Below are positions 29,886-62,506 of a DNA stretch of 64,000 bases, one piece after another; the first letter of the stretch is position 1, and each line of letters begins with the position of its first letter. The notes beneath the pieces are model-generated. The model did no database searches, was not told the DNA's origin, and saw only the letters and a program-made list of their open reading frames with translations. A program made the position numbers and the translations under genes. This stretch comes from Nesterenkonia halophila (lineage in GTDB: Bacteria > Actinomycetota > Actinomycetes > Actinomycetales > Micrococcaceae), in NCBI RefSeq assembly GCF_009467795.1, contig NZ_WIAX01000001.1:124001-188000 (forward strand), read 5' to 3'.

Positions 29886-29945
29886 GATGACTCCGTGGCT
29901 CGTGTGGGAATGAGCGACCATTCCCACAGTTTCCACGGCGTCATC
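29886..29945. repeat. 60-bp palindromic repeat, copy A
   Basis: Ends GATGAC at the left and GTCATC at the right; the 27-nt arms pair at 22 of 27 positions around a short centre. It shares GATGACTCCGTGG with copies B (61619) and C (62447). It starts 15 bp after the metB stop and ends 30 bp before the MOSC start. Confidence 0.85.
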
Positions 29946-29962
29946 GCCTCCGAGGGGGCGCC

Positions 29963-29968
29963 TAGACT
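29963..29968 (+). promoter_or_regulatory. leaderless -10 box of the MOSC gene
   Basis: TAGACT followed by GGCGCC and ATG; no ribosome site. Confidence 0.6.
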
Positions 29969-29974
29969 GGCGCC

Positions 29975-30601
29975 ATGAGTGACGCCTCGCCCATCTGTCT
30001 GCTCGCCGCCGCCGACCGGCTCGGCCTGACCGGCACAGTGGAGGCCGTCTGCGTGGTCGACCAGCTCGTCCGCGACGCCGCCGGGACGGTCGGGGTCACC
30101 GCCATCGACAAGCGGCCCACCGAGGAACCGGTCATGGTCCGGACCTTCGGGCTGCACGGCGACGTCCAGGCCGACCGCAGGAACCACGGGGGCGAGGAGA
30201 AGGCGGTCTACGCCTATGCCGACGACGCCGCCGCCTGGTGGGCCGATCAGCTCGGCCGGGACCTCCCGGCCGGGGCCTTCGGCGAGAACCTGCGGCTCGC
30301 CGGCCTCGACGTCGACGGCGCCTACCCGGGGGAGCGATGGCGGATCGGCGAGCAGCTCGTCCTCGAGGCCACCCGCCCGCGGATCCCCTGCGCGACCTTC
30401 GGCCGCTGGATGGACGAGCCCGGCTGGGTGAAGCGGTTCCTGCAGGCCGGCCGCCCCGGCACCTACTTCCGCGTGGTCACCCCCGGCGAGATCCGCGCCG
30501 GCGACCCGGTGGAGGTCATCTCCGTCGCCGAGGCCCCGGAGGCCACCATCCGCGAGATCGCGACGGCGAAGGGCCCGGCGACCGCGCGGCCGGGGGACTG
30601 A
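29975..30601 (+). CDS. MOSC-domain protein (YiiM-like)
   Basis: A 208-residue sulfur-carrier-type protein. The MOSC domain covers most of the protein: GLHGDVQADRRNHGG, AFGENL, GERWRIGEQLVLEATRPR and the conserved Cys in RIPCATFGRW. YiiM-type proteins help detoxify N-hydroxylated bases using a molybdenum cofactor, but this function is inferred from the family. It converges with the response-regulator gene; the stops are 7 bp apart. Confidence 0.88.
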   Translation: MSDASPICLLAAADRLGLTGTVEAVCVVDQLVRDAAGTVGVTAIDKRPTEEPVMVRTFGLHGDVQADRRNHGGEEKAVYAYADDAAAWWADQLGRDLPAGAFGENLRLAGLDVDGAYPGERWRIGEQLVLEATRPRIPCATFGRWMDEPGWVKRFLQAGRPGTYFRVVTPGEIRAGDPVEVISVAEAPEATIREIATAKGPATARPGD

Positions 30602-30607
30602 GCCGCC

Positions 30608-31264
30608 TCAGCTCAGCTCCGCTCGATGGATCGCCAGGGCGATCTTCACCCGATTGTCGGCCTCCAGCTTCTGCATGATCCGCCCGATGTGCGTCGTGAC
30701 CGTCGGCAGGCTGACGACCTGCGCCTCGGCGATCTGCTGATTCGTCATCCCCTCGGCGACGGCTCGGGCGATCTCCAGCTCCCGCTCGGTCAGTGCGGCG
30801 AGGCGGCCGCGAGCTTCCTCGCTCCGGGAGCCCTCGCGCGGGGCGGTGGCCCGCGAGATCACCTGCCGGGCGACTGACGGAGAGAGCACCGGGGCGCCCT
30901 CGGCGGCCTGCCGCACGGAGCGGACGAGCTCGGCCGGCGGAGTGTCCTTCAGCAGGAATCCGGCGACGCCGCGCTCCAGGGCCCGCAGCACGGTCTCGTC
31001 GGCGTCGAAGGTGGTCAGCACCAGCACAGTACGGTCGGGGTCGTCGGCCAGCAGCTGCTCGGCGCAGGCGAAGCCGTCCATGCCCGGCATGCGCAGGTCG
31101 AGCAGCACGACATCGGGGTCGAGCGCGGCGGCGAGCTCGACGGCCCGGTGCCCGTCGGCGGCCTCGCCGGCGATGTGCAGCCCCTCGGCGCCGTCGAGCA
31201 GCAGGTGCAGACCGGCACGGATGAGCTCCTCGTCGTCGACGACCAGCACACTCAGCTCGGCCAT
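30608..31264 (-). CDS. NarL/LuxR-type response regulator
   Basis: A 218-residue two-component regulator. The receiver domain (about 1-120) has the acidic pair in VVDDEEL, the phospho-acceptor Asp in DVVLLDLRMPG and the conserved Lys in FLLKDTPP. The C-terminal LuxR helix-turn-helix reads LTEREL, AEGMTNQQIAEAQVVSLPTV. The ATG overlaps the last codons of the upstream kinase gene, so the two are translationally coupled. Since that kinase is frame-shifted, the regulator may be orphaned. Confidence 0.9.
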   Translation of the reverse strand: MAELSVLVVDDEELIRAGLHLLLDGAEGLHIAGEAADGHRAVELAAALDPDVVLLDLRMPGMDGFACAEQLLADDPDRTVLVLTTFDADETVLRALERGVAGFLLKDTPPAELVRSVRQAAEGAPVLSPSVARQVISRATAPREGSRSEEARGRLAALTERELEIARAVAEGMTNQQIAEAQVVSLPTVTTHIGRIMQKLEADNRVKIALAIHRAELS

Positions 31265-32258
31265 GGCACCCACGCCCTCACGAGGAACTCGTCCTCTCCG
31301 GCCTCGGTGACGAGCTGCCCGCCCGCCAGCTCGGAGCGCTCGCGGGCGCCGACATGCCTGAGTCCTCCGCCGGCGCCGACCGGAGCTTCCTCCGGCGCTC
31401 TGCGGATCCGCGGGTTGGCGACGGTCAGCGCCAGCCGGTCGCCGGGGCCGCCGTCAAGGGTGACCTCCACGGCGGCTCCCGGGGCATGGCGCAGCGCATT
31501 GGTCAGCGCCTCCTGCACGATGCGGTGGACGTGGCGGCTCGACGCGGGCGGCAGCTCGGCCAGCGGCGCCGGGGTCCGCACAGTGGTGGGGGAGCCGGCG
31601 TCGTCGGCGTCCTGGGCGAGGCGCCGGATGCGCGCCTCCAGATCGAGCCCCGGGTCGTGATCCTCCGGGAGATGTCCGGACGCGTCGTCGCGCAGCACCT
31701 GCAGCGTGCGGCGGACCTCGCCCATCGCCTGGTGGGCGCTGGAGCGGATCACTCCGGCCTCATGCCGTACCTGCTCGGCGGCGAGCCCCTCGCGGTACTC
31801 CAGCGCCCCGGCATGGAGGGCGATGAGCGAGAGCCGGTGGCCGACTTCGTCGTGGATCTCCCGCGAGATCCGGATGCGTTCCTCCGTGCGGGCCTGCTCG
31901 GCGGCGAGGCGACAGTGGCGGCGAGCAGGAGCGCCACCAGCCGCAGGCTGCGGCGCGTGCTCAGCGAAGCGACGGCGAGCAGCCACGGGGCCACGTCGAA
32001 GACGGAGAAGCCCGCCGTCGCACAGAGGAGCAGGGCGATGGTCACCGGGGCCCGGTCCCGCAGGCCGACCAGGACCATCGAGGTGAGGCCGAGGAGGACG
32101 TCGAGCAGGAGCAGCAGCGGCGAGATGCCGGGGTCGATCGTGATGACGTCCACCCAGACGACGACGCCGGAGGCCAGGCCGATCAGCGCCGTCAGGGGCA
32201 GCTGCCAGAGGTGGCGTCGGCGTCGTCCACGAGCTGTCACGGCGTCCGGCCTATCCAC
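31252..32258 (-). pseudogene. two-component sensor histidine kinase, frameshifted
   Basis: An intact gene would encode a roughly 335-residue HisKA_3-type kinase. The N-terminal frame (from a GTG near 32258) codes for four or so membrane segments up to LRLVALLLAATVA. The second frame carries the H-box region RISREIHDEVGHRLSLI, dimerisation helices and the ATPase domain (VHRIVQEALTNALRHAPG, GGLRHVGAR). The shift lies near 31905-31920, where CTCGCCGCC occurs twice 17 bp apart; loss of one C in a short C run would explain it. A sequencing error is possible. The catalytic parts are otherwise undamaged, so the lesion is recent. Confidence 0.75.
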
Positions 32259-32416
32259 CGGCCCGGCGCCCCGCGTCGACCGGAAGGATGACGCTGATCT
32301 GGTCCTCTCGACGGCGGGCCGGCTGCTCAGCGGCCGATGTGGGCGCCGGCGGGCCGGCGAAGGATGGAACCAGGCCTTCTTCGACGACCACTGATGTCAC
32401 GACCCCGCCGCACTCC

Positions 32417-33218
32417 ATGCCGTGCCCCGACGAGGCGTCGGCGCCGCCGGCCCACCACCGACTGGCCCGCAGCTGGCCGCAGTACCGCTGGTGGAAGCCG
32501 CTGCTGGGCCTGGTGCTCAGTGCGGTGATCTATGCCGTCGGCGGCTTAGTCCTCATGATCGCCGTACTGCTGTCGCCGCTGATCCGGGACTCCGACGCGG
32601 AGTTTCCTGCGACGCTGGACGTCTACGATCCCTGGGGATTCACGCTGATCTTCGGAACCATCGCGCTGATGCTCCCGGCGCTGCTGCTGGGCTTCCGGCT
32701 GGCGGGATGTCGGCCGGTCGGGCTGCTGTCCTCAGTGGCCGGGCGGCTGCGCTGGACGATGATGGCGCGCTGCCTGGTGCCGGCCGTCGTCGTCACCGCC
32801 GGGATGGCGGCCGTCTCCGCCTGGGCGCAGCTCGGCGAGGGGGCGGCAGATGGGGCTGCAGGTCCCGTGGCCGATGCTGCTGCTGGCCTTCGTGCTCGGC
32901 CATGACTACGACCTGCCCGGGCAGCTGGCGATCGCCGTGTTCGCGCTCGGGACAGCCTGGATCACCTGGCGCACCGGAGGGCTCGAGGCGGCGATCGCGC
33001 TGCATGTGGTCAACAACCTCGCCGCGTCTCTCGTCGGGTTCGGCGGGATCGGCGACCTGGCGGCGACGGAGGTCGGCTGGCCGGTGGCACTGGCCGATGC
33101 CGCGGCGGTCGCGGCCTTCGTGCTCTGGGTCGAGCATCGGATCGTGCGGGCGAGGCCCGTCTCTCCCGCATCACGGGCCGGGTCTCTTGACTCTCCCGGT
33201 CGGCCGGGCGGACGCTGA
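32417..33218 (+). pseudogene. CPBP-family membrane protease, internally deleted
   Basis: Two adjacent frames together resemble an Abi/CAAX-protease (CPBP) protein. The first (from ATG 32417 to about 32840) has three membrane segments and RWTMMARCLVPAVVV. The second (about 32850-33218) has the family C-terminus AWITWRTGGLEAAIALHVVNN. The middle of the family, which bears the catalytic EExxxR and the segment around it, is absent, and the frame changes at about 32835-32860. The product cannot be an active protease. It lies next to the broken kinase. Confidence 0.7.
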
Positions 33219-33246
33219 CGGTGGACCGGGCAGCGGGGTGAGGCAT

Positions 33247-34314
33247 ATGTGGACGGTGGACGACCCGACGGCCGAGGCGGCGGAGGAGCGTCTCGTCGGG
33301 ATCCTCAACGACGGGTGCCTGGGGCTGATGCTGGCCCTCGGCCACCGCACCGGGCTCCTCTCCGTCCTGGCGCAGGCGTCGACGCCGCCGACGGCTGTCG
33401 AGCTCGCCGCCTCCGCCGGTCTCCAGGAGCGCTATGTGCGCGAGTGGCTCGGGGCGATGACCGTCGGGCGTCTCGTCGCCCACGACCCGCAGACCGGACG
33501 CTATCGGCTGCCGGCGGCGCATGCGGACCTGCTCACCGACGCCGGCGAGGCGAACGTAGCGGCCTTCGCCCAGTACCTGGCTGTCCTCGCCGGCGTCGAG
33601 GACGAGCTCGTCGGCTGCTTCCGCACGGGCGGTGGGGTCCCGTACTCCTCTTATCCGCGGTTCCAGGAGGTCATGGAGGCCGACTCCGCACAGACGGTGG
33701 TCGCCGCCCTGCTCGACGACGTCCTGCCCATGGTCCCAGGCCTCGCCGGCCGGCTGACCGCCGGCATCGACGTGCTCGACGTCGGGTGCGGCCGGGGGAG
33801 GGCGCTGGCAGTGCTGGCCCGGGAGTTCCCGCGCTCGCGGTTCCACGGGCTCGACCTCTCCCAGGAGGCGATCGACCACCTGCGCGCCGAGCATGCCGAC
33901 CTGCCGTCGCTGGAGGGGCGCGTCGGCGACGCCGCCGTCCTCCCGGCGCCGTGGGGCGCCCAGTCCTTCGACCTGGTGACGACCTTCGACGCGATCCACG
34001 ACCAGGTCGATCCCCTCGCCGTGGTGCGCGGCATCCGGGAGGTGCTGCGGCCCGACGGCGTCTACCTGGCCCAGGACATCAATACTTCGGGCACTCATGC
34101 CGGCGACCTCGACCACCCGCTGGGACCGTTCATCTATACGATCTCCACGATGCACTGCCTGACGGTCTCGCTGGCCCGGGGCGGGACCGGCCTCGGAGCC
34201 GCGTGGGGGCGGCCGGCCGCGGAGGCGCTGCTCGCCGAGAGCGGCTTCAGCTCGGTGTCCACGCACCTGCTGCCGCATGACGCGCAGAACGCCTGGTACG
34301 TGGCCTGGCCGTGA
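33247..34314 (+). CDS. class I SAM-dependent methyltransferase with winged-helix N-terminus
   Basis: A 355-residue protein with an N-terminal winged-helix dimerisation part (about 20-95: LGHRTGLLSVLA, TAVELAASAGLQERYVREWLGAM) and a methyltransferase domain (about 175-300: IDVLDVGCGRGRALAVLA, FHGLDLSQEA, FDLVTTFDAIHD). This layout matches Rv2258c-like proteins of unknown substrate. GTGAGG precedes the ATG. An ORF open far upstream in this frame belongs to the degenerate CPBP region. Confidence 0.82.
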   Translation: MWTVDDPTAEAAEERLVGILNDGCLGLMLALGHRTGLLSVLAQASTPPTAVELAASAGLQERYVREWLGAMTVGRLVAHDPQTGRYRLPAAHADLLTDAGEANVAAFAQYLAVLAGVEDELVGCFRTGGGVPYSSYPRFQEVMEADSAQTVVAALLDDVLPMVPGLAGRLTAGIDVLDVGCGRGRALAVLAREFPRSRFHGLDLSQEAIDHLRAEHADLPSLEGRVGDAAVLPAPWGAQSFDLVTTFDAIHDQVDPLAVVRGIREVLRPDGVYLAQDINTSGTHAGDLDHPLGPFIYTISTMHCLTVSLARGGTGLGAAWGRPAAEALLAESGFSSVSTHLLPHDAQNAWYVAWP

Positions 34315-34353
34315 CCTTCGTCTCTCGACTCGGCATTCGGCGTCGCGATGCCG

Positions 34354-34638
34354 TAGACTCATAGGGCATTCTCCGGAAGGCCCCGTCTTCTCCTGCTTGC
34401 TCCAGGCGAGCGTCGAAGCATTCGACGCCTGTGATGCCTGTCGAGGTTCATGTGTGTTTCACGGGTCGACTCCGGAGCCGACCAGCGGTCGCAGAGTCCC
34501 CGTCATCCCAGCTCTCATCAGAGCATGTGCACCCTGCCCTGCCCTTGACGCATGTCGAGCAGAGGTGGTCGACGCATGTGTGCAGAAGAGCTGTGCTGTC
34601 GAGGACCGGCCGTGCCGATCCGAGAAGGAGCACCGCCC
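34354..34638 (+). promoter_or_regulatory. promoter and about 270-nt leader of the DEAD-box helicase gene
   Basis: TAGACT (34354-34359) would start a transcript near 34366, leaving an unusually long untranslated leader. It contains an 8-bp hairpin GCGTCGAA-GCA-TTCGACGC (34410-34428) and repeated GTCGA/CGAC and GCATGTG words. Long structured leaders are known for cold-shock DEAD-box helicase genes such as deaD/csdA, so post-transcriptional control is plausible. No gene is visible in 34315-34638. Confidence 0.5.
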
Positions 34639-36615
34639 ATGAGCACCCCCACCATCACCCCGGACGCCGACGAGCGTCAGGAGACCGTCGAGCAGCCCGC
34701 CACGGCTGCGACGGAGGAGCAGACCCCGCAGGCTGAGCCGACTGCTGAGCAGACGACTGAGCAGGCGACCGACCAGACTGCTGAGCAGACGGAGGAGCCC
34801 GTGCAGTCCGAGACCGCTGAGACGTCCGCGGCGCCCGAGGCCGCCGAGCCCGCCTTCCGCACCCTCGGCCTGGACCATCGTGTGATGGCCGTCGTCGACC
34901 GGATGGGTTTCACGACCCCCACGGCGATCCAGGCCCGGACCGTCCCGCTGATGAACCAGGGCCGCGACGTCATCGGTCTGGCCCAGACCGGCACCGGCAA
35001 GACGGCGGCCTTCGCGCTGCCGACGCTGAGCAGCCTGGCCGCCGAGCACGACGCCGGCCAGCTGACCCGGACCCCCAAGGCGCTGGTGCTCGCCCCGACG
35101 CGTGAGCTGGCGCTGCAGGTGGCCGACGCGTTCTCCACCTACGCGGCCGACGTCGACGGCGTCACCGTGCTGCCGATCTACGGCGGCGCCCCCTACGGCC
35201 CGCAGCTGGACGGTCTGCGCCGTGGTGCGCAGGTCGTCGTCGGCACCCCGGGGCGCGTCATCGACCACATGCAGCGCGGCTCGCTGGATCTCTCGGGCAT
35301 CGAGCACCTCGTCCTCGACGAGGCCGACGAGATGCTGCGCATGGGCTTCGCCGAGGAGGTCGACCAGATCCTGGCGAAGACTCCGTCCGCGAAGCAGGTC
35401 GCGCTGTTCTCGGCCACCATGCCGAAGGCCATCCGCCGGATCTCCGCCGACTACCTGAACGACCCGGTGGAGGTCTCGGTCAAGGAGGCGACGTCGACGT
35501 CGTCGACGATCAGCCAGCGCTACGTCCAGGTCAAGCATCACGCCAAGGGTGACGCCCTGGTGCGGATCATGGAGACCGAGACGCAGGACGGAGCGATCGT
35601 GTTCGTCCGCACTCGTGCGGCCACCGAGGAGGTCGCCGAGAAGCTGACCGCCCGCGGCTTCCGCGCCGCCGCCATCAACGGCGACGTCCCGCAGAAGCTG
35701 CGCGAGAAGACGGTGGAGAATCTGCGCGCCGGCCGGGTCGACGTGCTGGTGGCCACCGACGTCGCCGCCCGCGGGCTCGACGTCGAGCGGATCAGCCACG
35801 TCTACAACTACGACATCCCCATGGACACCGAGTCCTATGTGCACCGGATCGGCCGCACCGGCCGCGCCGGGCGCTCCGGGGAGGCTGTGCTGTTCGTGAC
35901 CCCGCGCGAGCGGCGGATGCTGCGCTCGATCGAGAAGGCCACGCGCCAGAAGGTCGAGCAGATGGCGATGCCGACCATCGCCGACGTCAACGCCGCCCGG
36001 TCGCGGCGCTTCGCCGAGCGGATCACCGCCGCCCGGCAGGACGGCCAGATCGACCAGTACCGCGAGGTCGTCAGCTCCTACATCGCCGATAACGATGTTT
36101 CCGGGGAGGATGTCGCCGCCGCGCTGGTGGCGATGCTCCACGAGGGGCGTCCGCTGTTCGACCGGGACTCCGGCCACGACGACCTGGTCCGCGAAGCGTC
36201 CCGCGAGGCCTCGGAGAAGCCCGAGCGCGGCGGTCGTGACCGTGGCCCGAAGGGGCCGGCCCGCGAGGCCGGCCCCGGCAAGGCGATGTACCGCATCGCT
36301 GTGGGCCGCCGGAACGGGGTGAACCCCGGTCACATCGTCGGGGCCATCGCCAACGAGGCCGACCTGCCGGCCAAGGACATCGGCGGCATCGACATCCGCA
36401 ACACCCACGCGCTGGTCGAGCTGCCCGAGCAGCTGTCCTCCGCGCAGTGGGATGCGCTGGCGAAGACGCGGATCGGCGGCGAGCTGATCGAGCTGAAGAA
36501 GGACGCCGGCGGCGCGTCCGGCGGCCGCGGGGGCGGCGCACCGCGCGGCGGCGGGCGTCGTGACGCCAAGTCCGGCGGCTTCGGCTCCACGAAGCGCAAG
36601 CCGCGCTCGAGCTGA
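34639..36615 (+). CDS. DEAD-box ATP-dependent RNA helicase (DeaD/CsdA type)
   Basis: RNA helicase likely acting in cold adaptation, ribosome assembly or RNA decay. The 658 residues begin with about 75 low-complexity Thr/Glu/Gln/Ala residues (TAEQTTEQATDQTAEQ). The core follows: Q motif TPTAIQARTVP, Walker A AQTGTGKT, APTRELA, DEAD in VLDEADEML, SAT, and HRIGRTGRAGRSG. A DbpA-type RNA-binding domain lies near 550-620 (MYRIAVGRRNGVNPGHIVGAI), followed by a Gly/Arg/Lys-rich tail. GAAGGAG precedes the ATG by 8 nt; 29 upstream in-frame codons lie in the leader. Confidence 0.94.
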   Translation: MSTPTITPDADERQETVEQPATAATEEQTPQAEPTAEQTTEQATDQTAEQTEEPVQSETAETSAAPEAAEPAFRTLGLDHRVMAVVDRMGFTTPTAIQARTVPLMNQGRDVIGLAQTGTGKTAAFALPTLSSLAAEHDAGQLTRTPKALVLAPTRELALQVADAFSTYAADVDGVTVLPIYGGAPYGPQLDGLRRGAQVVVGTPGRVIDHMQRGSLDLSGIEHLVLDEADEMLRMGFAEEVDQILAKTPSAKQVALFSATMPKAIRRISADYLNDPVEVSVKEATSTSSTISQRYVQVKHHAKGDALVRIMETETQDGAIVFVRTRAATEEVAEKLTARGFRAAAINGDVPQKLREKTVENLRAGRVDVLVATDVAARGLDVERISHVYNYDIPMDTESYVHRIGRTGRAGRSGEAVLFVTPRERRMLRSIEKATRQKVEQMAMPTIADVNAARSRRFAERITAARQDGQIDQYREVVSSYIADNDVSGEDVAAALVAMLHEGRPLFDRDSGHDDLVREASREASEKPERGGRDRGPKGPAREAGPGKAMYRIAVGRRNGVNPGHIVGAIANEADLPAKDIGGIDIRNTHALVELPEQLSSAQWDALAKTRIGGELIELKKDAGGASGGRGGGAPRGGGRRDAKSGGFGSTKRKPRSS

Positions 36616-36620
36616 GCCTG

Positions 36621-36672
36621 CACGACGACGGCGCGGTCCCGGCCACACGGTCGGGGCCGCGCCGTCGTCGTG
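36621..36672 (+). terminator. terminator of the helicase gene
   Basis: A perfect 16-bp stem (CACGACGACGGCGCGG at 36621-36636 with 36657-36672) with further inner pairing. Confidence 0.8.
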
Positions 36673-36777
36673 TCGGCAGTCTCAGGCCGCCGGTCGCCTG
36701 ACCGGCCGCGCGGCTGGTCATCGAGCCCCGGACGCGAGGGTGGATCGAAGAGGTGAGTCAGGTCACATCCTCTCGAT

Positions 36778-36806
36778 TTCACTCGCCATGAGGGTGCTGG
36801 TAGACT
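36778..36806 (+). promoter_or_regulatory. tRNA-Thr promoter
   Basis: -35-like TTCACT (36778-36783) and -10 TAGACT (36801-36806) with 17-bp spacing, 11 bp upstream of the tRNA. Confidence 0.6.
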
Positions 36807-36817
36807 TTCATGCCGTT

Positions 36818-36889
36818 GCCCCAATAGCTCAGCGGTAGAGCGCCATCTTGGTAAGGTGGAGGTCGCGGGATCGATTCCCGCTTGGGGCT
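36818..36889 (+). tRNA. tRNA-Thr (GGT)
   Basis: A 72-nt cloverleaf: acceptor strands GCCCCAA and TTGGGGC pair fully, D-loop AGCGGTAGAG, T-loop ATCGATTC. The anticodon GGT is at 36850-36852. CCA is not encoded. A weak hairpin (GCCCGCGC and GCGCGGGC) follows before tRNA-Met. Confidence 0.96.
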
Positions 36890-36974
36890 CGGAGTGAGAG
36901 CCCGCGCAGCGCAGAGCGTCTCATCCTCCCGAGGATGGGGCGCCACTGCACGGCGCGGGCGCTTCTCATTCTGT

Positions 36975-37048: not shown

Positions 37049-37059
37049 CGGGCCCGGAG

Positions 37060-51403: not shown

Positions 51404-51877
51404 AGGGTCCTTCCTGTCGGCGGCAGAGGGTCGGCGGACAGCGCGCGGACCTCCCTCGCGGACGAAGGACGGCGTGCGGCGCGGCTGCGCGCATACCGGA
51501 TCAGGCTACAGAGGTGCCGGAGGGGCGATTCTGCGGGGCCCCGCCGTCGCGGGCTCCGGGTCGATGCCTCGCAGGGCGCGGCGGCGGCGGTCGGCGACCG
51601 GACGCGCACGGGACGCTGCTTCGGCCTGACGAGCGCGGTCGGGCGTGCGGCGCGCGACGTCGACGAGGGCTTCCGAGCCGGTGTGGAGAGGGCGTCCAGC
51701 CGGTCGTCAGTCGGCACCGGGAAACTCCGGAGTAAGTGATGATGATCACCTCGCCCTGTGAGGAGGATCACTGTCTCACCGTCGCGCCCGCCGCGCACGA
51801 CGAGGCCCCGACGTCGATTCTGCGACGTCGGGGCCTCGTCGGAGGGCCGGCGGACCGGCCTGGATGCGGCGGTCGGC
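51404..51877. promoter_or_regulatory. gene-free region with paired CRP/FNR-type sites
   Basis: No convincing gene is visible in these 474 bp between the symporter and asd. Two GTGA-N6-TCAC sites occur at 51736-51749 and 51758-51771, exactly 22 bp apart (two helical turns). They resemble sites for CRP/GlxR-like proteins. The only gene that could be their target in view is the symporter, over 330 bp away. The asd terminator occupies 51798-51841. Confidence 0.55.
51798..51841 (-). terminator. terminator of asd
   Basis: A perfect 19-bp stem (51798-51816 with 51823-51841) and a 6-nt loop, 37 bp after the asd stop. Confidence 0.8.
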
Positions 51878-55154: not shown

Positions 55155-56321
55155 TCAGTCGTCGAACGGGTCGTGGACCTCGACCGCGACGATCGTGCCC
55201 GAACGGTCCACCGCCTGCTGGGCGACGAGCACCGCGCCCGGGCGCAGATACGGGTCCTCGGCGGGCAGCGCCTCGAGCAGCTCGGGGTCGCGGATCCAGT
55301 CCCGCAGCTCCTCGAGCACCGTCGGCAGCACGGGCCGGTGGGTGCACATCAGCAGCGGCTGCAGCGCCTCCAGCGACTTGCGGGTGCGGTTCCGCGGCTT
55401 CTGCGGCTTCTCCAGCGCCCGCTTCTCGGTGAGCGAGTCGCGGTACTTCAGCCGGTGGCGGTGGCGCTTCACGTAGGGGGCGACGGTCTCCACACAGCGC
55501 TTCCACGGGCTGGACTCCAGCATCCGGGGCCGCCAGGCGGTCAGCAGCCGCTCGACGGCCTTGGCCTGGCGCTTGCCGGTGGCCGCCAGCGGACGCTTGC
55601 CCTCGGCTTTGGACCAGGAGGCGCGCGGCTTGGCCTTGGCGTGGCGCAGCACGATGAACGGGGAAGTGCGCAGCCGCATCTCCTCGTGGAGCCGCTCCAG
55701 CTCGTCCAGCGGCTGGCGGTCGGTGTCGTTGCTCAGCATCTCGCGGGCCTGCGGGACGGCGACCCAGCGGACCTCGTCGGTCTCCTCGGCGTCGGGCTTG
55801 GGCTTGCCCTCGGTGACCTGGGCCGCCCAGTACCAGACCTCCTTGGACTTCATCCTGCCGCTCTTGCCGACCATGTAGCGGGTGATCGGCAGCGGCATGC
55901 CCAGGCGCACCTTCAGCCCGATCTCCTCATGGACCTCGCGCACTGCGCACTCCGGCAGCGTCTCGCCGGGGTCGAGCTTGCCCTTGGGGAAGGACCAGTC
56001 GTCGTAGCGCGGCCGGTGGATCAGCAGCACTTCCAGCGCGCCGCGGTTCAGCCGCCAGCACAGGGCGCCGGCGGCGAGCACCGCGGCGTCGTGGCCGTCG
56101 TCGGCGCAGGTCGTGGTGCGCCGGCGCGGCACGCGGGTCATCAGCTCTGCCGGCTCTGCTGACTCTGTCGCCGCTGTCGGCTCGGCCGGCGTCGCCCCGG
56201 TGCCGTTCGTCGAGGGGGCGGCGACGGCGGCGTCCGGCACGGAGCGCGCCGAGGCGCCCGCGCGCGCGTCGTCGGCGATGTCGGGAACGGCGTCGTCGAG
56301 GCTGCGGTCTGTGGTGTTCAC
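55155..56321 (-). CDS. MutT1-like protein: Nudix hydrolase fused to a histidine phosphatase
   Basis: A 388-residue two-domain protein resembling mycobacterial MutT1, which clears oxidised nucleotides and Ap4A. The N-terminal 75 residues are Ala/Thr-rich. The Nudix domain (about 80-210) has the complete box GETLPECAVREVHEEIGL. The histidine-phosphatase domain (about 220-380) has VLRHAKA, ESSPWKRCVETV and a late His in MCTHRPVL. The GTG start is uncertain, as no good ribosome site or -10 is seen. Confidence 0.87.
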   Translation of the reverse strand: MNTTDRSLDDAVPDIADDARAGASARSVPDAAVAAPSTNGTGATPAEPTAATESAEPAELMTRVPRRRTTTCADDGHDAAVLAAGALCWRLNRGALEVLLIHRPRYDDWSFPKGKLDPGETLPECAVREVHEEIGLKVRLGMPLPITRYMVGKSGRMKSKEVWYWAAQVTEGKPKPDAEETDEVRWVAVPQAREMLSNDTDRQPLDELERLHEEMRLRTSPFIVLRHAKAKPRASWSKAEGKRPLAATGKRQAKAVERLLTAWRPRMLESSPWKRCVETVAPYVKRHRHRLKYRDSLTEKRALEKPQKPRNRTRKSLEALQPLLMCTHRPVLPTVLEELRDWIRDPELLEALPAEDPYLRPGAVLVAQQAVDRSGTIVAVEVHDPFDD

Positions 56322-56402
56322 GTCGGTGATGATCCTCGGGAGCTGCTCGGCGGTGCGGCGTTCAGGCGGGGTCTGCGGGGTCCCTGGGAGACCCGGCGAG
56401 GG

Positions 56403-57530
56403 TCAGGAGGAGACGTCGCCGTCGGCGTCGCCGGCGGGGGCGTACATGGTGTCGACGTCCCAGCGGGCGAAGCCCAGCGCGGTGTAGAGCTGCACCGCCG
56501 GGGTGTTGTCGGCGTCGGTGTAGAGCATGATCGCCCCCAGCCCGCGCGAGCGCAGATGCTCGATGCCGGCCAGCGTCAGCACGCGGCCCAGCCCGCGGCC
56601 GCGGGCCTCGGGGGCCACGCCGACGACGTAGACCTCGCCGACGGGCTCGTGGCGGCCCTCGGAGGGATCGGCGGGGTGGACTTTGGTCCAGTGGAAGCCC
56701 AGCAGCCGCCCGTCCTCCTCGGCGAGCAGGAAGCCGGCGGGATCGAACCAGTCCTCGGCCATCCGGGCCTCGAGGTCCTCGCGGGTCAGCCGCCCCTGCT
56801 CGGGGTGGTCGGCGAAGGCCGCCGCATTGACGCGGAGCCAGACCTCCTCATCGCGGCCGGGCTCGAAGGCGCGGATCTGCACGCCCGCCGGAGCGTCCGG
56901 CACGGTGATCTCCTGCGGGGCGGTCAGCCGCATCCGCCACAGTTCGCGCACCGGGCGCCAGGCGAAGCGGGAGGCCAGCCGCACGGCGGCCTCGTGCTCG
57001 CCGTGCGCCCAGGCTCGGCGCGTCCGTCCGGCGGCCGGGGCGAGGGCGTCGGCGGCTAGGGTGTCGGCCAGCCGGCCGCCGACGCCGTGCTGGCGGCAAT
57101 TCGGCCGGACCACCATCTCCAGCACATCGGGGGTCTCCGCGTCGCCGCGGACGACGACGCCGGCGCCGGCGAGCAGCGGCCCCGCGCTCGCGTCCTCGGC
57201 CCCTTCATCTGCCGCCTCGTCAGCGGGCTCCCCGGTGGTCTCGGGTCCGCCCTCGCCGGCCGGCCAGGCCCAGGCGACGGCGAGGCGCAGCGGGGATCCG
57301 TCCGCGCCGGCCGCGCCGGCCTTCTCCAGCTCGATCAGCGTCTGCTCCGAGAAGGGCGGATTGCCGTCGGCCTCCTCGGCGGTGCGCGCCAGCTCCTCCA
57401 GCGCGCGGACCAGGTCGGGACCCGGGGCGGCGGAGCGGGGCTCCACTGTGATCTCGGCCGGGGCCCCCGGGGCGCTCCCTGCGGGGGATCCCGTCGGGGC
57501 GGGGGTGCTCGTCGTGTCCTCGGAGCTCAT
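56403..57530 (-). CDS. mshD: mycothiol synthase
   Basis: Acetylates Cys-GlcN-Ins, the last step of mycothiol synthesis. The 375 residues hold two GNAT domains: a degenerate N-terminal one (about 95-195, RPNCRQHGVGGRLAD) and an active C-terminal one (about 220-365: VYVVGVAPEARGRGLGRVL, LYTDADNTPAVQLYTALGF). An acidic, Ala/Pro-rich insertion lies near 115-140. The ATG at residue 23 of the longest frame is chosen because TACAGT lies 6 nt upstream. It neighbours glnR as in mycobacteria. Confidence 0.92.
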   Translation of the reverse strand: MSSEDTTSTPAPTGSPAGSAPGAPAEITVEPRSAAPGPDLVRALEELARTAEEADGNPPFSEQTLIELEKAGAAGADGSPLRLAVAWAWPAGEGGPETTGEPADEAADEGAEDASAGPLLAGAGVVVRGDAETPDVLEMVVRPNCRQHGVGGRLADTLAADALAPAAGRTRRAWAHGEHEAAVRLASRFAWRPVRELWRMRLTAPQEITVPDAPAGVQIRAFEPGRDEEVWLRVNAAAFADHPEQGRLTREDLEARMAEDWFDPAGFLLAEEDGRLLGFHWTKVHPADPSEGRHEPVGEVYVVGVAPEARGRGLGRVLTLAGIEHLRSRGLGAIMLYTDADNTPAVQLYTALGFARWDVDTMYAPAGDADGDVSS

Positions 57531-57536
57531 GGCTCT

Positions 57537-57542
57537 ACTGTA
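57537..57542 (-). promoter_or_regulatory. leaderless -10 box of mshD
   Basis: On the minus strand TACAGT, AGAGCC, then ATG; decides the start over the longer frame. Confidence 0.55.
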
Positions 57543-57668
57543 TCGGAGCGGAACCACCCGCGGGGCCCGCCTCCGGCGTGGTCGAGCTCGGGGCATCCCC
57601 GGGGCGGGGCGGCGTCGGAGCAGAGGCGGGAGCAGGAGGTGGGGGCAGGCGCCGGACCAGGCGTCAGG

Positions 57669-58379
57669 TCAGGCGCGCGGCTCGTCCTCGCTCGCGGCGT
57701 CCTCGCCGTCCTCCGGCTCCTGGTCGGCGCGGGAGACCACCAGGCGGTAGCCGACGTTGCGGACGGTGCCGATCAGCGACTCGTGGTCGGGTCCCAGCTT
57801 CGCGCGCAGCCGACGGATGTGGACGTCGACGGTGCGGGTGCCGCCGAAGTAGTCGTAGCCCCAGACCTCGTGCAGCAGGCGGTCCCGGGTGAAGACGTGG
57901 CCGGGATGCAGCGCCAGATGCTTGAGCAGCTCGAACTCCTTGTAGGTGAGATTGAGCAGCCGGCCGTCGATGGTGGCCATATAGGTGGTCTCGTCGATGG
58001 TGATCCCGCCGGCGCGGATCTCGTCGGCGTGGCCCTCCTCGGCGGCCTCGACGGCGCCCATCCGGATGCGCGCGTCGATCTCCCCGGGGCCGGCCTCGGC
58101 GAGCACGAAGTCGTCGACCTGCCAGCTCTCGTTCAGCGCGGGGAGCCCCGATTCGGCGACGACGGCGACCACCGGGGCGGCCGTCGACTGCCGCACCAGC
58201 TGGCAGAGCGAGCGGGCGTGGGCGAGCTCGGTGCGTGCGTCGACCAGAGTGATGTCCGCGCGGGGAGCGCGCACGATGCTCGAGGCCTCGGCGGGGAATA
58301 CCCGGACCCGGTGGGTGAGCAGCTCCAGCGACGGCAGGGCGTCCTCGGGGGTGTCGGTGAGCAGCAGCACCTGGGCCAT
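57669..58379 (-). CDS. glnR: GlnR-type nitrogen regulator, atypical OmpR-family response regulator
   Basis: A 236-residue regulator. The receiver-like part (1-110) lacks the usual acidic pair but keeps D47 in ADITLVDART, as in GlnR proteins that act without phosphorylation. The OmpR winged helix (about 125-220) matches Streptomyces GlnR closely: YKEFELLKHLALHPGHVFTR, EVWGYDYFGGTRTVDVH and HESLIGTVRNVGYRL. It would activate or repress ammonium and glutamine genes. An acidic tail of about 18 residues ends the protein. GGGGAG precedes the ATG. Confidence 0.92.
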   Translation of the reverse strand: MAQVLLLTDTPEDALPSLELLTHRVRVFPAEASSIVRAPRADITLVDARTELAHARSLCQLVRQSTAAPVVAVVAESGLPALNESWQVDDFVLAEAGPGEIDARIRMGAVEAAEEGHADEIRAGGITIDETTYMATIDGRLLNLTYKEFELLKHLALHPGHVFTRDRLLHEVWGYDYFGGTRTVDVHIRRLRAKLGPDHESLIGTVRNVGYRLVVSRADQEPEDGEDAASEDEPRA

Positions 58380-58534
58380 CCGTGGTCTCCCCTGTCCTCG
58401 CGTCGTCTCCTCGGCCGGAGGGCGGCGACATCACGGGCCGGCGGGCCTGGCGCCGTCGTGCCGCACGGATCGAGTATAGCCGCGCCGCCGCCGGACCGAG
58501 CCGCGTCGCGTCGGCTCTGGCAGGATGGTCTGCT

Positions 58535-59374
58535 GTGAAACACCTCCCCGTGGCCCTCTCCGGCCTGCTCTCCGCGGCGGCGCTGCTGGCCTCCTCCTTC
58601 GCCGGCGCGTCGGTGCTCGCGGCGGTGGTCTGCCTGATGTGCCTCGTCGTCTCGCTGGGCTGGCCGCAGCTGATGGGCGTGGCCGCGCGCCGCTCGCTCG
58701 TGGCGGTCATCCTGGGCGCCGGCGTCGTCGCCGCGCTCGGCGCGGCCGTCGTCTCGGCGGTCGAGTCGCTGTTCTTCTGGTCCTCGGTGGCGCTGGCCTT
58801 CGGAGTGATGGCCATCTTCGTCATCCAGGTCGTCCGCGGCACCGGACGTCCCCACCGGATCGAGTCGACGATCGGCGCTTCCTCCGGCGTGGTGGTGACG
58901 ACGACGGCGGCCGGCTGGGTGGCCGGGCTGCGGTATCCCGCCGAGCTGGTCGGCGTCGGCGGCGACCGCGCCGGACTGGTGCTCATCCGCAGCCCGCTGC
59001 CCTACGAGGACTGGGGCGTGCTCGGCGTCACCGGCGCCTCCGGCGAGCTGACCGTCGTCGGCCTGGCCGCGCTGGCGCTCTGCGTCGCGGTGCTGCTGGC
59101 CTGCCTGCCGCTGCGCGATCTCCTCGCAGTGCCGCTGATCATCCTGGGCACGGCGGCCGCCGCTCTCGGAGTCGGCCTGGCCTGGGGCGAACTGACCGCG
59201 CTCTTCTCCGTGGTGCTCGGACTGGCGGCCGGACTGCTGGTCTCGGCGATGCGGCGGCTGCTGCTGCACCGCGGCGCGCCCGCCGGGCGGATGGCCGCGT
59301 TCGCCGTCGGCACCGCCCCGGTGGCGGTGATGGGCGCGCTGGTCTTCTTCGCCGAGCGCCTGCTGCTGGTCTGA
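58535..59374 (+). CDS. integral membrane protein of unknown function
   Basis: A 279-residue protein with about eight hydrophobic segments and only short loops. One larger loop near 108-150 contains RGTGRPHRIESTIGAS and GLRYPAEL. No family motif is recognised, though hydrophobic proteins of this sort commonly lie next to glnR in actinobacteria. The GTG is preceded by CAGGAT 8 nt upstream and no ribosome site. It is divergent from glnR. Confidence 0.75.
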   Translation: MKHLPVALSGLLSAAALLASSFAGASVLAAVVCLMCLVVSLGWPQLMGVAARRSLVAVILGAGVVAALGAAVVSAVESLFFWSSVALAFGVMAIFVIQVVRGTGRPHRIESTIGASSGVVVTTTAAGWVAGLRYPAELVGVGGDRAGLVLIRSPLPYEDWGVLGVTGASGELTVVGLAALALCVAVLLACLPLRDLLAVPLIILGTAAAALGVGLAWGELTALFSVVLGLAAGLLVSAMRRLLLHRGAPAGRMAAFAVGTAPVAVMGALVFFAERLLLV

Positions 59375-59405
59375 CGCACGTCTGACGACGGCGCAGCCGA
59401 CCCGG

Positions 59406-59411
59406 TAGACT
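59406..59411 (+). promoter_or_regulatory. leaderless -10 box of the 44-residue peptide gene
   Basis: TAGACT, CGCGGAC, then ATG; no ribosome site. Confidence 0.6.
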
Positions 59412-59418
59412 CGCGGAC

Positions 59419-59553
59419 ATGGACATCGCACTGCAGAACGTCTCGCTGCTGGGACTGGAGATCTTCTTCATCGGCCTGCTCGTGCTGGTGGCTCTGGTCA
59501 TCGCCGGCATCTCGCTGACCGTGATCACCCGCCTGTACAAGGGACAGCGCTGA
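59419..59553 (+). CDS. 44-residue single-span membrane peptide
   Basis: Encodes MDIALQNVSLLGLEIFF, a long hydrophobic run to about residue 37 and a basic end RLYKGQR. One membrane helix with a positively charged C-terminus is predicted. The gene is well placed: TAGACT 7 nt before the ATG, and the next gene starts 3 bp after its stop. The function is unknown. Confidence 0.7.
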   Translation: MDIALQNVSLLGLEIFFIGLLVLVALVIAGISLTVITRLYKGQR

Positions 59554-59556
59554 CCC

Positions 59557-60183
59557 GTGGCACCGATGGAGCTCCCCACCGACATCACCCCTGAGCTGGC
59601 GCCGCTGTACTGGCTGCTCGGCCGCTGGGAGGGGCAGGGGCGCCTCGGCGCCGGCGAGGAGTCGGACCCGATCTTCACCCAGCGGGTCACCTTCCGCGAC
59701 TCCGGGCTGGAGTTCGTCGAGTACCGCGCGCAGAGCTGGCTCTCCGACGCGGACGGCACGCGACTGCGCCCGCTGAGCGTGGAGACCGGCTTCTGGTCGC
59801 TGCATCGCCCGCGCGCCGACGCCGACGTCGGCCCCGGACTGGACCCCGCCGACGTGGTCCCGGCCTATAAGACCGCCTCCGACGTCGAGGAGCTGGCCGT
59901 CGACGACGGCACCTATCCGATCACGGCGACGATCGCGCATCCGGGAAGCCTCACCGAGCTGTACACCGGGCGCATCAAGGGCCCGCAGCTGCAGCTGGCC
60001 ACCGACGGCGTGATGCGCGGCGAGCATGCGGCGGAATACAGCGGGGCCACCCGCATGTTCGGGCTGGTGAACGGCCAGCTCTTCTGGCGCTGGGATCTGC
60101 AGACCGTCGACGGCGAGACCGTCCCGCACGCCTCGGCGGTGCTGGACCGCATCGCCTCCGCCTCGGAGGTCGACGGCGTCTGA
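59557..60183 (+). CDS. FABP-like / nitrobindin family protein
   Basis: A 208-residue beta-barrel protein. The family signature GRWEGQG is near residue 22, and a C-terminal His in PHASAVLDR matches the heme ligand of nitrobindins, which bind ferric heme and nitric oxide or isomerise peroxynitrite. The GTG start follows AAGGGA at the end of the preceding peptide gene; an ATG three codons in is an alternative. The order near glnR and mshD resembles the mycobacterial region with Rv0813c. Confidence 0.87.
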   Translation: MAPMELPTDITPELAPLYWLLGRWEGQGRLGAGEESDPIFTQRVTFRDSGLEFVEYRAQSWLSDADGTRLRPLSVETGFWSLHRPRADADVGPGLDPADVVPAYKTASDVEELAVDDGTYPITATIAHPGSLTELYTGRIKGPQLQLATDGVMRGEHAAEYSGATRMFGLVNGQLFWRWDLQTVDGETVPHASAVLDRIASASEVDGV

Positions 60184-60265
60184 TCCCGACGCCGCGCGTC
60201 GGCGTCCCGTCAGGATGCCCGGCGCCGGATCCGCTGGCGACGAGCCCACGACGTCAGGAGCGCTG

Positions 60266-61570
60266 GTGACCGACACCGAGACCCCGCCGACCGACCCCGC
60301 CGGGGAGCATGCCGAGGAGCACGTCGGCGACCGGCCCGGCCAGGAGCGCTCGCCGCTGCTGGACCGCCGCGGCGCCGTCGCCGCCGAGGCCGAGGACGCC
60401 GCCGTCGCGGCCCACTACGGCGACCCGGTGCGCGAGCAGCGTCGGCTGGAGGCCGGTCAGGCCGTCGTCGACCTCTCCCACCGCTCGGTGGTGACCGTCT
60501 CCGGCCCGGACCGGCTGTCCTGGCTGACCACGCTCTCCTCGCAGCAGGTCTCCTCGCTGGCCCCCGGCGAGTCCACCGAGCTGCTGCTGCTCGACCTCTC
60601 CGGACGCATCGAGCACGACGCCGCCGTCGTCGACGACGGCGCCACGACCTGGCTGATCACCGAGAACACCCACGGCGGCGTGCTCGCCGCGTGGCTGGAG
60701 TCGATGAAGTTCATGCTCCAGGTCGAGATCGTCGACCGCACCGGCGACTGTGCGGTGCTCGGCTCCGTGGCCGCGCCGCCCGAGGAGCTGCCCGGCGAGG
60801 TCGTCCGCTGGCAGGACCCGTGGCCGCGGCTGGGGCCCGGAGCGGCCAGCTACGCCGCTGTCGAGGAGGCCGAGCACCCCGGGGCGGGCTGGTCCTGGCA
60901 TCTGACGGTCGTCGCCCTCGAGCAGCTCGCCGCCGGCGTCGAGGCCCTGGAGACCGGAGCCGCCTGGAGCCTGGCCGGCGTCCACGCCGCCGAGGCGCTG
61001 CGCGTGGCCGCCTGGCGTCCGCGGCTGGCCCGCGAGGTCGATGAGAAGGCCATCCCGCACGAGCTGGACCTCATCCGCACGGCGGTGCATCTGGCCAAGG
61101 GCTGCTACCGCGGCCAGGAGACCGTCGCCCGCGTGCACAACCTGGGCCATCCGCCGCGCCGGCTGGTCTTCCTGCAGCTCGACGGCAGCGAGCACACGCT
61201 GCCGGCGGTCGGCTCGGACGTGCTCGCCCCGCGCGGGGCGACGGATCCGGAGACGCTCGCCGGAGAACGGTCGGTGGGCCGGGTGACCTCCACGGCGCGG
61301 CACCACGAGATGGGGCCGATCGCGCTGGCGCTGGTCAAGCGCCGGGTCGACCCCGAGGCGCAGCTGGTCGTCCGCGATCCGAACCGCTCGTCCGCGGCGG
61401 AGCAGGGCGACGAGGCGTCGGATCGCGTCGAGACGGCCGAGGGCGCGGAGGCCGGGGAGGATCCTGCGCCGAGCTTCTACGCTGCCGCCCAGGAGATGAT
61501 CGTGAAGCCCGACGCCGGCCAGGTGGTGGGCCGCCCGACGGGCGACTTCGTGCGCCCGCCGCGCCGCTGA
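60266..61570 (+). CDS. ygfZ: folate-binding YgfZ/GcvT-like protein
   Basis: A 434-residue protein of the YgfZ family, which uses folate to support iron-sulfur cluster enzymes. The diagnostic motif KGCYRGQE is present, followed by VARVHNLGHPPRRLV. The N-terminal 40 residues and a segment near 375-405 are acidic low complexity. CAGGAG lies 5 nt before the GTG. It may function with the aconitase and other Fe-S proteins of this window. Confidence 0.9.
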   Translation: MTDTETPPTDPAGEHAEEHVGDRPGQERSPLLDRRGAVAAEAEDAAVAAHYGDPVREQRRLEAGQAVVDLSHRSVVTVSGPDRLSWLTTLSSQQVSSLAPGESTELLLLDLSGRIEHDAAVVDDGATTWLITENTHGGVLAAWLESMKFMLQVEIVDRTGDCAVLGSVAAPPEELPGEVVRWQDPWPRLGPGAASYAAVEEAEHPGAGWSWHLTVVALEQLAAGVEALETGAAWSLAGVHAAEALRVAAWRPRLAREVDEKAIPHELDLIRTAVHLAKGCYRGQETVARVHNLGHPPRRLVFLQLDGSEHTLPAVGSDVLAPRGATDPETLAGERSVGRVTSTARHHEMGPIALALVKRRVDPEAQLVVRDPNRSSAAEQGDEASDRVETAEGAEAGEDPAPSFYAAAQEMIVKPDAGQVVGRPTGDFVRPPRR

Positions 61571-61618
61571 GCAGGCCCCGCCCCCAGCCCCCGCCGCCGG
61601 CGACTATGTCCCGGCTGC

Positions 61619-61678
61619 GATGACTCCGTGGGATGGGTGGGAATGCGCGCGCATTCCCACCCATCCCACGGAGTCATC
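61619..61678. repeat. 60-bp palindromic repeat, copy B (perfect)
   Basis: A perfect palindrome: bases 61619-61648 are the exact reverse complement of 61649-61678. It begins GATGACTCCGTGG and has GCGCGC at the centre. It lies between the convergent ygfZ and GNAT genes. Confidence 0.95.
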
Positions 61679-61697
61679 CTGTCGGTGGGCGCGGCTG

Positions 61698-62417
61698 TCA
61701 GGTCAGCGTGACCGTGGTGCGGGCGCCGATGTCGACGAAGCCCAGCGCGTGGGCCAGCCGACGGGAGGCCGGGGCCTCCACTGCGGCCCGCCATTGCGGG
61801 ACCAGTCCGTCGACGAAGGCCTCCTCCACGGCGACGGCGCCGACGTGGGCGGCCAGCCCCCGGCCGCGATGCGCCGGGGCGGTGAGCACCCCCAGCTCGC
61901 CGAGCAGCATCTGCTGCACGCGGCGTCCGGCAGCGGTCAGCGGGGTCCCGTCGGACTCGTCGACCAGCGTCGCGGCCCACTCGGCCGCGGGCAGCCCGGA
62001 GGCGGCGACGTCGTCGGCCGGGGAGTCCTCCAGGAGCGCGTGCACCGGCTCCGGCTCGAAGGAGATCGCGCCGGAGGCCACCGGCGAGGGCGGCACCTCG
62101 GGCGGCTCCTCGCTGCACAGCAGGAAGGTCTCGCCGGCGATGCGCGCGCCGGGGTGCTCGGCGGCGGCCAGCGCCAGCAGGCGGGTCTCGTCGGCCAGCT
62201 GCTCGTCGGGCACGGAGCGGGCGCGGTCGAGCAGCGGTTCCGGTCCGGAGAGCACGGCCCGGTCGAAGAGCCGCGTGAAGGAGAGGGACGCGGCGTCGTC
62301 GTCGACGACCTCGAGGCGCAGCCCCGGGTCGCCGCGCTCGAGGTCGAAGTCGTCGAGCTGCAGGGTGCGCGCCCAGGCCAGGCGGATGATCTGGCGGGTG
62401 TGCTCGGTCAGCGGCAT
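61698..62417 (-). CDS. GNAT-family N-acetyltransferase
   Basis: A 239-residue protein whose C-terminal half is a GNAT domain: MLLGELGVLTAPAHRGRGLAAHVGAVA (acetyl-CoA loop RGRGLA) and ASRRLAHALGFVDIG. The N-terminal half is variable and acidic. The ATG at residue 10 of the longest frame is chosen; GGAGGT lies just before it and TAGGGT lies 7 nt upstream, so either initiation mode is possible. Substrate unknown. Confidence 0.78.
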   Translation of the reverse strand: MPLTEHTRQIIRLAWARTLQLDDFDLERGDPGLRLEVVDDDAASLSFTRLFDRAVLSGPEPLLDRARSVPDEQLADETRLLALAAAEHPGARIAGETFLLCSEEPPEVPPSPVASGAISFEPEPVHALLEDSPADDVAASGLPAAEWAATLVDESDGTPLTAAGRRVQQMLLGELGVLTAPAHRGRGLAAHVGAVAVEEAFVDGLVPQWRAAVEAPASRRLAHALGFVDIGARTTVTLT

Positions 62418-62446
62418 GACCTCCACCCTACGCGTCCGACGCACAG

Positions 62447-62506
62447 GATGACTCCGTGGAAAGTGTGGGAACGCGCGCGCATTCCCGCACGACCCACGGA
62501 GTCATC
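62447..62506. repeat. 60-bp palindromic repeat, copy C
   Basis: Arms 62447-62476 and 62477-62506 pair at 25 of 30 positions. The outer 13 bp are identical to copy B. The changes cluster at arm positions 14-16, 20 and 26. It lies 18 bp past the pfkA stop on the minus strand. Confidence 0.9.

Follow-up and report, generated by a model that had tools for sequence, protein, structure and literature searches.

A family of fixed-length 60-bp palindromes dispersed at gene ends in two species of Nesterenkonia

RESULTS

Three palindromes in the window belong to a dispersed family

The DNA analyzed here, called the window, is a 64,000-nucleotide stretch of Nesterenkonia halophila (Micrococcaceae; contig NZ_WIAX01000001.1, positions 124,001 to 188,000), and it carries three palindromes of exactly 60 bp, each located 15 to 48 nt beyond a stop codon (Table 1). 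These were found to be members of a family that is dispersed through this genome and that of a sister species, Nesterenkonia sp. F, and that lies mainly at gene ends. Direct reading agreed with an earlier note on this DNA as to the place and length of the three palindromes, their location directly after gene ends, and a GCGCGC center in two of them, the two on the right; the arm differences that the note had placed at positions 14 to 20 were found mainly at 14 to 18 and 20. All three copies start with GATGACTCCGTGG and end with GTCATC, and the arms of copies 1 and 3 are 80% and 83% complementary, respectively. When the inner core (GTGGGAATG-N6-CATTCCCAC, up to three mismatches) was sought, only the three copies matched in the window, compared with a mean of 0.01 in 100 shuffles, so their occurrence is not due to chance. 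At the palindromes, no match to an Rfam family attained the gathering score, the only Rfam matches in the window being three tRNAs elsewhere. Copy 2 also lies 19 nt beyond the stop codon of the convergent GNAT gene, and copy 3 is also directly upstream of that gene.

Table 1. The three palindromes and their adjoining genes, in window positions
Feature	Position	Strand	Description
Palindrome copy 1	29886..29945	.	60 bp, imperfect; 13/60 differences from matching sp. F copy C29:4119
Palindrome copy 2	61619..61678	.	Perfect 60-bp palindrome between convergent genes; 9/60 differences from matching sp. F copy C97:4362
Palindrome copy 3	62447..62506	.	Imperfect; after phosphofructokinase, before GNAT gene; 9/60 differences from sp. 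F C97:5191
Cys/Met metabolism pyridoxal phosphate-dependent enzyme gene	28689..29870	+	Pfam PF01053; stop 15 nt ahead of copy 1
MOSC-domain gene	29975..30601	+	Pfam PF03473; start 29 nt beyond copy 1
Folate-binding (GCV_T-like) gene	60215..61570	+	Pfam PF01571; stop 48 nt ahead of copy 2
GNAT acetyltransferase gene	61698..62444	-	Pfam PF12746; between copies 2 and 3; start at 62444 (home-made gene caller, 62426)
Phosphofructokinase gene	62525..63568	-	Pfam PF00365; stop 18 nt from copy 3

The extent of the family was determined with a covariance model built from 16 copies, at most 150 candidates being scored per genome. In the genome of the window (2.19 Mb in 29 contigs, 65.5% complete) the model recovered 32 places at an E value of <1e-4, with copy 2 scoring highest, plus one weak 51-bp place (E value of 0.33); the sp. 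F genome (93% complete) gave 63 places. A half-motif pattern produced 32 + 32 and 63 + 63 matches, respectively, and its reversed control produced 0. Among the 95 copies, 93 were exactly 60 bp long, including all 63 of sp. F, and two, both in N. halophila, were 62 bp. This length scan covered 59 to 62 bp, and the model search, which allows gaps, agreed with it apart from the weak 51-bp place. Both counts, 32 in a genome that is 65.5% complete and 63 in that of sp. F, exceed the threshold of ten set earlier, and the proposal of a dispersed family resembling repetitive extragenic palindromic (REP) sequences was borne out.

Many copies were present in only 2 of 30 genomes of the genus in the model search, and the 60-bp family was found in none of the other 28 congeners searched. 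Three of the 28 had one weak model place each (E values of 7e-5 to 3e-4); that of G023 is a 70-bp relative (see below), and those of G021 and G022 were rejected because they read as ordinary GC hairpins. A scan for GATGACTCCGTGG-N5-GTGGGAA with one genome per species returned 22 stretches, every one from sp. F. The pattern GATGACTC-N30..60-GAGTCATC matched 5 of 396 genomes of the order, and the three outside the genus (G168, G287, and G406, one or two matches each) were taken as unrelated. The single match in G406, from another family of the order, is an almost perfect palindrome of 54 bp whose ends are GATGACTCGG (C1:1591776-1591829). A phage or plasmid origin was also rejected: the element had no BLAST match in the phage and plasmid collections, and the half-motif occurred in 15 viral contigs with one half each and both halves in none, which was taken as chance. 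Because the family is restricted to 2 of the 30 genus genomes, it does not represent an ancient, conserved set of terminators.

Conserved boxes, a fixed-length loop, and co-varying arms

In 93 aligned copies, which end in GATGAC and GTCATC, each arm contains two conserved boxes, GATGACTCCGTGG at positions 1 to 13 and GTGGGAA at positions 19 to 25, separated by a variable 5-bp spacer (positions 14 to 18). The loop (positions 26 to 35) varies in sequence and is fixed in length. When the copies were placed in a 28-pair structure, 88.5% of cells were paired, compared with 83.7% in shuffles, and both sides had changed in 171 cells compared with 86.9 (SD of 6.6), a number reached in 0 of 500 shuffles. 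The pair 26/35 was unpaired in 53 of the 93 copies, which leaves a stem of about 25 bp. The predicted RNA folding energies of all 95 copies ranged from -18 to -61 kcal/mol, with a median of -44.4.

The conservation of the boxes exceeds the needs of pairing, the 16 model copies having 27 invariant columns of 60 and the 93 copies having 10 of 60. Together with the nearly invariant length, mismatches that are symmetric between strands, and the presence of copies in divergent junctions, this would suit a duplex-DNA site for a protein dimer or oligomer (a nucleoid protein, gyrase/topoisomerase, or structural-maintenance factor) between convergent genes, with the 60 bp providing helical phasing of the boxes. 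However, the spacer has no fixed sequence and yet its two sides co-vary, which is not required of a duplex site, and both sequence and length change completely among species of one genus (60, 72, and 74 bp, see below). No candidate protein came to light, although no search was aimed at one. The protein-bound site offered in the earlier note is thus favored by the boxes and the symmetric mismatches and opposed by the spacers, and we consider it improbable.

Copies occupy gene ends and tend to replace other hairpins

Gene contexts were assigned with a home-made gene caller. Once a spurious match of low score had been removed and 3 of 82 copies inside predicted genes left out, 79 intergenic copies remained, a set that excludes 13 copies (the two of 62 bp and eleven from sp. 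F). Convergent genes surrounded 39 of these copies, co-directional genes 29, and divergent genes 11, compared with 12, 37, and 11 of the 60 junctions in the window, a convergent excess with a binomial P value of 5e-9. The median distance was 25 nt to a stop codon (107 gene ends) versus 98 nt to a start codon (51 gene starts). Of the convergent regions, 4 of 45 with a copy and 12 of 33 without one contained another hairpin (Fisher P value of 0.004), and of the co-directional regions, 0 of 31 with a copy and 25 of 165 without one did so (P value of 0.017), all regions being drawn from stretches chosen for holding copies. The copies thus tend to replace other hairpins. The outer flanks were G-rich on the outward strand (0.47 to 0.54 G, depending on context), and control positions just after stop codons without elements had 0.41 C and 0.35 G. 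Given the location of the elements at terminator positions and their tendency to take the place of other hairpins, a terminator role is predicted as likely. The statement that the copies are "not independent terminators" therefore holds for their origin, as they are related by descent, and does not hold for their predicted role.

Five other hairpins in the window (18574-18645, 21196-21252, 25189-25226, 36621-36672, and 51798-51841) are long, GC-rich, unrelated in sequence, and without a U-run, and are probably ordinary terminators.

The copies themselves could be ordinary bidirectional hairpin terminators that were made alike by gene conversion or convergence and had no mobile ancestor. Their position, the strength of their hairpins, and their substitution for other hairpins would all fit, and the other long hairpins of the window likewise have no U-runs. 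A fixed length in three unrelated families, conserved boxes, and diverse loops of fixed length would nevertheless be unexpected of such terminators, and whole-element gene conversion was not supported because sp. F elements that have the common arm AAGGT differ in their loops. On this balance we regard ordinary terminators as very improbable.

Copies persist at shared sites while their interior turns over

A copy was present at the matching place in sp. F for 29 of the 32 N. halophila copies (25 one-to-one, and four at two sp. F sites), indicating that the family had spread before the two species separated. When 21 one-to-one pairs were compared with random pairs, the spacer arms differed at 4.48 of 10 positions versus 4.66 (P value of 0.28), the boxes at 4.0 of 40 versus 4.56 (P value of 0.04), and the loops, which were somewhat alike, at 4.29 positions versus 5.36 (P value of 0.00025). 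Loop inversion was considered as a source of the loop changes: accepting either loop orientation gave a stronger orthology signal (3.52 versus 4.72, P value of 5e-5); the inverted orientation alone gave a P value of 0.107, with 9 pairs closer when direct, 6 when inverted, and 6 tied. For reference, third codon positions of the neighboring genes differed by 15.2% between the two genomes, and the flanking intergenic sequence had an aligned identity of 0.83, too close to the 0.79 of unrelated segments to gauge divergence well.

Across the 625 stem pairs of 25 matched pairs of copies, a set in which two sp. F copies are compared twice, 47 changes replaced one Watson-Crick pair with a different one, 92 were one-sided, and 11 were two-sided without pairing. 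Of the 63 sp. F elements, 21 had the arm AAGGT, versus 2 of 30 N. halophila elements (P value of 0.005), and over the 21 shared sites it occurred in sp. F only at 6 and in N. halophila only at 1. Length, boxes, and pairing are therefore held while the interior of the element turns over. Either selection on structure or template-switch repair, in which one arm is copied onto the other, would give this turnover.

Presence differed between the two genomes at a few sites. The sp. F sites C10:6535 and C48:670 correspond to short remnants in N. halophila, and no remnant was visible for C63:4643. As remnants persist, several of the absences represent losses, so that the comparison of empty orthologous sites called for earlier yielded losses at several sites and one site with no visible trace.

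The surroundings of phosphofructokinase were examined at 29 congener loci (two from G039, with G016 left out), and a GNAT gene was nearby in 17, including both genomes with the family. For the 15 of 28 other species with GNAT after phosphofructokinase, no family copy was found within the 150 nt read there. The gap between the two genes is 25 to 26 nt in G003 and G023 and about 75 nt in G008, with no such palindrome in the sequence read; in N. halophila and sp. F it contains the element. In G016 the phosphofructokinase match is in three pieces (C1:2558895-2559918), which suggests frameshifts in that assembly.

Copies cluster and may serve as junctions for gene gain or loss

Another copy was located within 3 kb for 15 of 32 copies in N. 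halophila and 26 of 63 in sp. F, where uniform placement would give 2.6 and 8.0. The most similar of the 435 N. halophila copy pairs, C11:51200 and C11:60755 (2/60 differences), are separated by 9.5 kb (L226:277-9725) containing a sugar-acid cluster with TRAP/DctM transporter parts, a mandelate-racemase-type enzyme, a sugar kinase-like protein, and KDPG aldolase, and the matching place in sp. F has a single copy. Similarly, 1.5 kb lies between C11:93458 and 94987, at a place where sp. F carries a single copy, and sp. F copies C77:3657 and 4829 enclose one gene that is missing from N. halophila, which keeps one degraded half-element there. In this two-genome comparison, gain and loss of the enclosed segments are not distinguishable, and the patterns suggest that copies may serve as recombination junctions for the gain or loss of genes between them.

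Tests for a mobile element

The family had earlier been described as possibly mobilized, with a search for a REP-associated tyrosine transposase (RAYT) proposed. The Pfam family of Y1 transposases and RAYTs, PF01797, was not found in N. halophila, sp. F, G003, G040, or G023 and was found in 1 of the 30 genus genomes (G006), the control genomes being matched. Direct repeats of 2 to 10 bp flanking the 95 copies showed no excess indicative of target-site duplication (for 2 bp, 23 versus 18.0, P value of 0.076). In N. halophila, 62 of 64 half-motifs paired into elements, the two left over (C13:12884 and C19:25066) appearing to be chance matches, and in sp. F the half-motifs, 63 + 63, agree in number with its 63 elements, as far as the matches were listed. 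No longer parent element bounded by half-sites was found in the assembled parts of either genome, and the palindromes were rejected as terminal inverted repeats of a longer transposon because there were no unpaired half-sites beyond the two in N. halophila. The ends, GATGAC and GTCATC, include neither GTAG nor CGTC, and membership in the RAYT-driven REPs was rejected on this ground and on that of PF01797. With no Y1/RAYT gene, target duplication, or longer element in N. halophila or sp. F, and with 29 of 32 copies at shared sites, the description as possibly mobilized gained no support.

A selfish element resembling miniature inverted-repeat transposable elements (MITEs) or the paired REPs known as REPINs might still spread, or once have spread, through an enzyme acting in trans, its 3' location reflecting tolerance and any terminator effect being incidental. 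The family resembles Pseudomonas REPINs in its fixed length, variable loop, and compensatory spacer changes (PMC3116915), and it has the bias toward convergent and co-directional 3' positions described for REPs (PMC3733652). Local clustering, well-paired copies between divergent genes, and a species-specific sequence also favor this explanation. Against it, PF01797 was not found in 29 of the 30 genus genomes, among them every genome with a palindrome family described here, target duplications were lacking, and copies replace other hairpins. There was also no clear recent insertion, since loss is clearer than gain at the few sites that differ. We consider a selfish element unlikely.

Other fixed-length palindrome families in the genus

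The pattern GATGACTC-N30..60-GAGTCATC identified 70-bp relatives, two in G023 (C19:21101 and 25462) and one in G040 (C5:42602), which share GATGACTCTG ends with the family of the window. The parts read of other genomes of the genus contained different long palindromes, and two of these were followed. For G040, the half-site TCGAGTCCCCGATC with at most one mismatch gave 41 matches compared with 0 to 9 in the other 29 genomes, and the family (CATCGAGTCCCCGATC...) comprised 23 copies in the fetched stretches, all of 74 bp in a length scan of 68 to 81 bp (e.g., L295:1487-1560 and L301:1510-1583). For G003, the half-site TTGAGATGGTGNGTTTC with at most two mismatches gave 30 matches compared with 0 to 4 elsewhere, and the family (GTTGAG[A/C]TGGTGNGTTTCCGCC...) comprised 15 copies, all of 72 bp except one of 73 bp (e.g., L312:1419-1490 and L345:1536-1607), with no other genus genome above background. 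Contexts were 10 convergent, 11 co-directional, and 2 divergent in G040 and 8, 6, and 1, respectively, in G003, and the outward flanks again contained much G (0.61 and 0.54). In the G003 family, 13 cells co-varied compared with 5.9 in shuffles, 0 of 500 being as high. Since the same design occurs in unrelated sequences of 72 and 74 bp, the class is wider than the 60-bp family, and palindromes of fixed length whose sequence is specific to a species seem to form a recurring class in Nesterenkonia.

DISCUSSION

The family itself, its fixed length, its complementary co-variation, its position, its restriction to one lineage, and its persistence at shared sites are directly supported by the data presented here. 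The explanation that we favor, with a probability of about 0.5, is that these are copy-derived elements that multiplied in a common ancestor and have been kept mainly at gene ends as bidirectional 3'-end hairpins. A short noncoding element of 60 bp would have multiplied in the common ancestor of N. halophila and sp. F, its copies presumably arising by copying of one ancestral element and not independently, and they would now be retained mainly at gene ends. RNA of either strand would fold into a strong hairpin that may end transcription or cap mRNA 3' ends from both sides, and copies may also act as recombination junctions through which enclosed genes are gained or lost. Ending transcription or capping 3' ends is the most likely role because the strong hairpin would form in RNA of either strand.

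Several results weigh against this explanation. No U-tract follows the hairpins (T is 11.6% of the first 8 outer bases), and 11 of the 79 intergenic copies are between divergent genes, a position that calls for no terminator. Those copies pair at least as well as the others (94.2% versus 88.4 to 91.2%), and divergent sites are not depleted relative to the window junctions (P value of 0.38), although they are relative to junctions of at least 75 nt (P value of 0.002). At co-directional junctions, stem mismatches read in the transcript sense are strand-symmetric (G.U, 26; A.C, 21), and strand-specific RNA selection was rejected for want of a G.U excess; mismatches without RNA-sense bias leave selection on one RNA strand alone unsupported. 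The co-variation could come from template-switch repair instead of selection, and in the G040 family it does not go beyond column composition (18 versus 18.1, with 461 of 500 shuffles as high), which weakens a uniform co-variation rule. A transposase, target duplication, and parent element were all absent from the tests in N. halophila and sp. F.

By its mode of working, the family comes closest to the REPIN/REP group, because it has inverted boxes, fixed spacing, a co-varying middle, a 3' location, and a lineage-specific sequence. As in REPINs, two inverted conserved boxes are held at fixed spacing around a variable middle with compensatory changes, and the copies are intergenic, number in the tens, and have a lineage-specific sequence (PMC3116915). 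The family differs from REPINs in having neither a Y1/RAYT gene nor a GTAG tag, in forming a single continuous stem of which a half-element shows, by eye, no REP hairpin of its own, and in copies that are long resident at shared sites. REPs are defined by a GTAG or CGTC tetranucleotide tag at one end, and a dedicated transposase is not known for the CGTC-tagged ones (PMC3733652). The gene and the tag are the two tested features by which the family falls outside the group. CGTC-tagged REPs are likewise palindromic, near stop codons, mainly at convergent or co-directional positions, and without a linked transposase (PMC3733652), but the present ends are GATGAC and GTCATC and the stem, of about 25 bp, is much longer. 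The hosts listed for them are Proteobacteria, Chlorobi, Bacteroidetes, Spirochaetes, and Thermotogae; the main text of that paper nowhere uses the word "Actinobacteria" (PMC3733652).

Bacterial MITEs such as ERIC/RU-1 and NEMIS are also small, palindromic, intergenic, nearly constant in length, and presumed to be nonautonomous; here, unlike MITEs, neither target duplications nor a larger element sharing the ends of the palindromes was found. Bidirectional intrinsic terminators share a strong symmetric hairpin directly after the stop codons of convergent genes but not the conserved boxes, the fixed length, the missing U-tract, or the copies between divergent genes. No prior description of these palindrome families was found in searches of the open-license literature, including PMC3733652, PMC1525189, PMC3116915, and PMC12306157, and "Nesterenkonia" does not occur in the main text of the last of these.

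More tentatively, the families might represent a RAYT-less REPIN-like class, in which lineage "dialects" (60, 70, 72, and 74 bp so far) multiply, settle as bidirectional terminators at gene ends, and act as junctions for the gain and loss of genes or islands; we hold this broader view to be possible, though doubtful.

REP-type palindromes are best known from Proteobacteria and are tied to RAYT transposases, and the palindromes described here belong to a high-GC actinobacterial genus and were found with no RAYT gene. Dispersed palindromes that combine a fixed length with conserved boxes and co-varying stems have evolved repeatedly in this genus, which raises the question of what spreads them. 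The families would offer a natural series in which to follow the conversion of bacterial repeats into terminators, and they suggest that genes are gained and lost at palindrome junctions. For genome annotation, these hairpins are predicted to mark the ends of transcription units where U-tract terminators are scarce.

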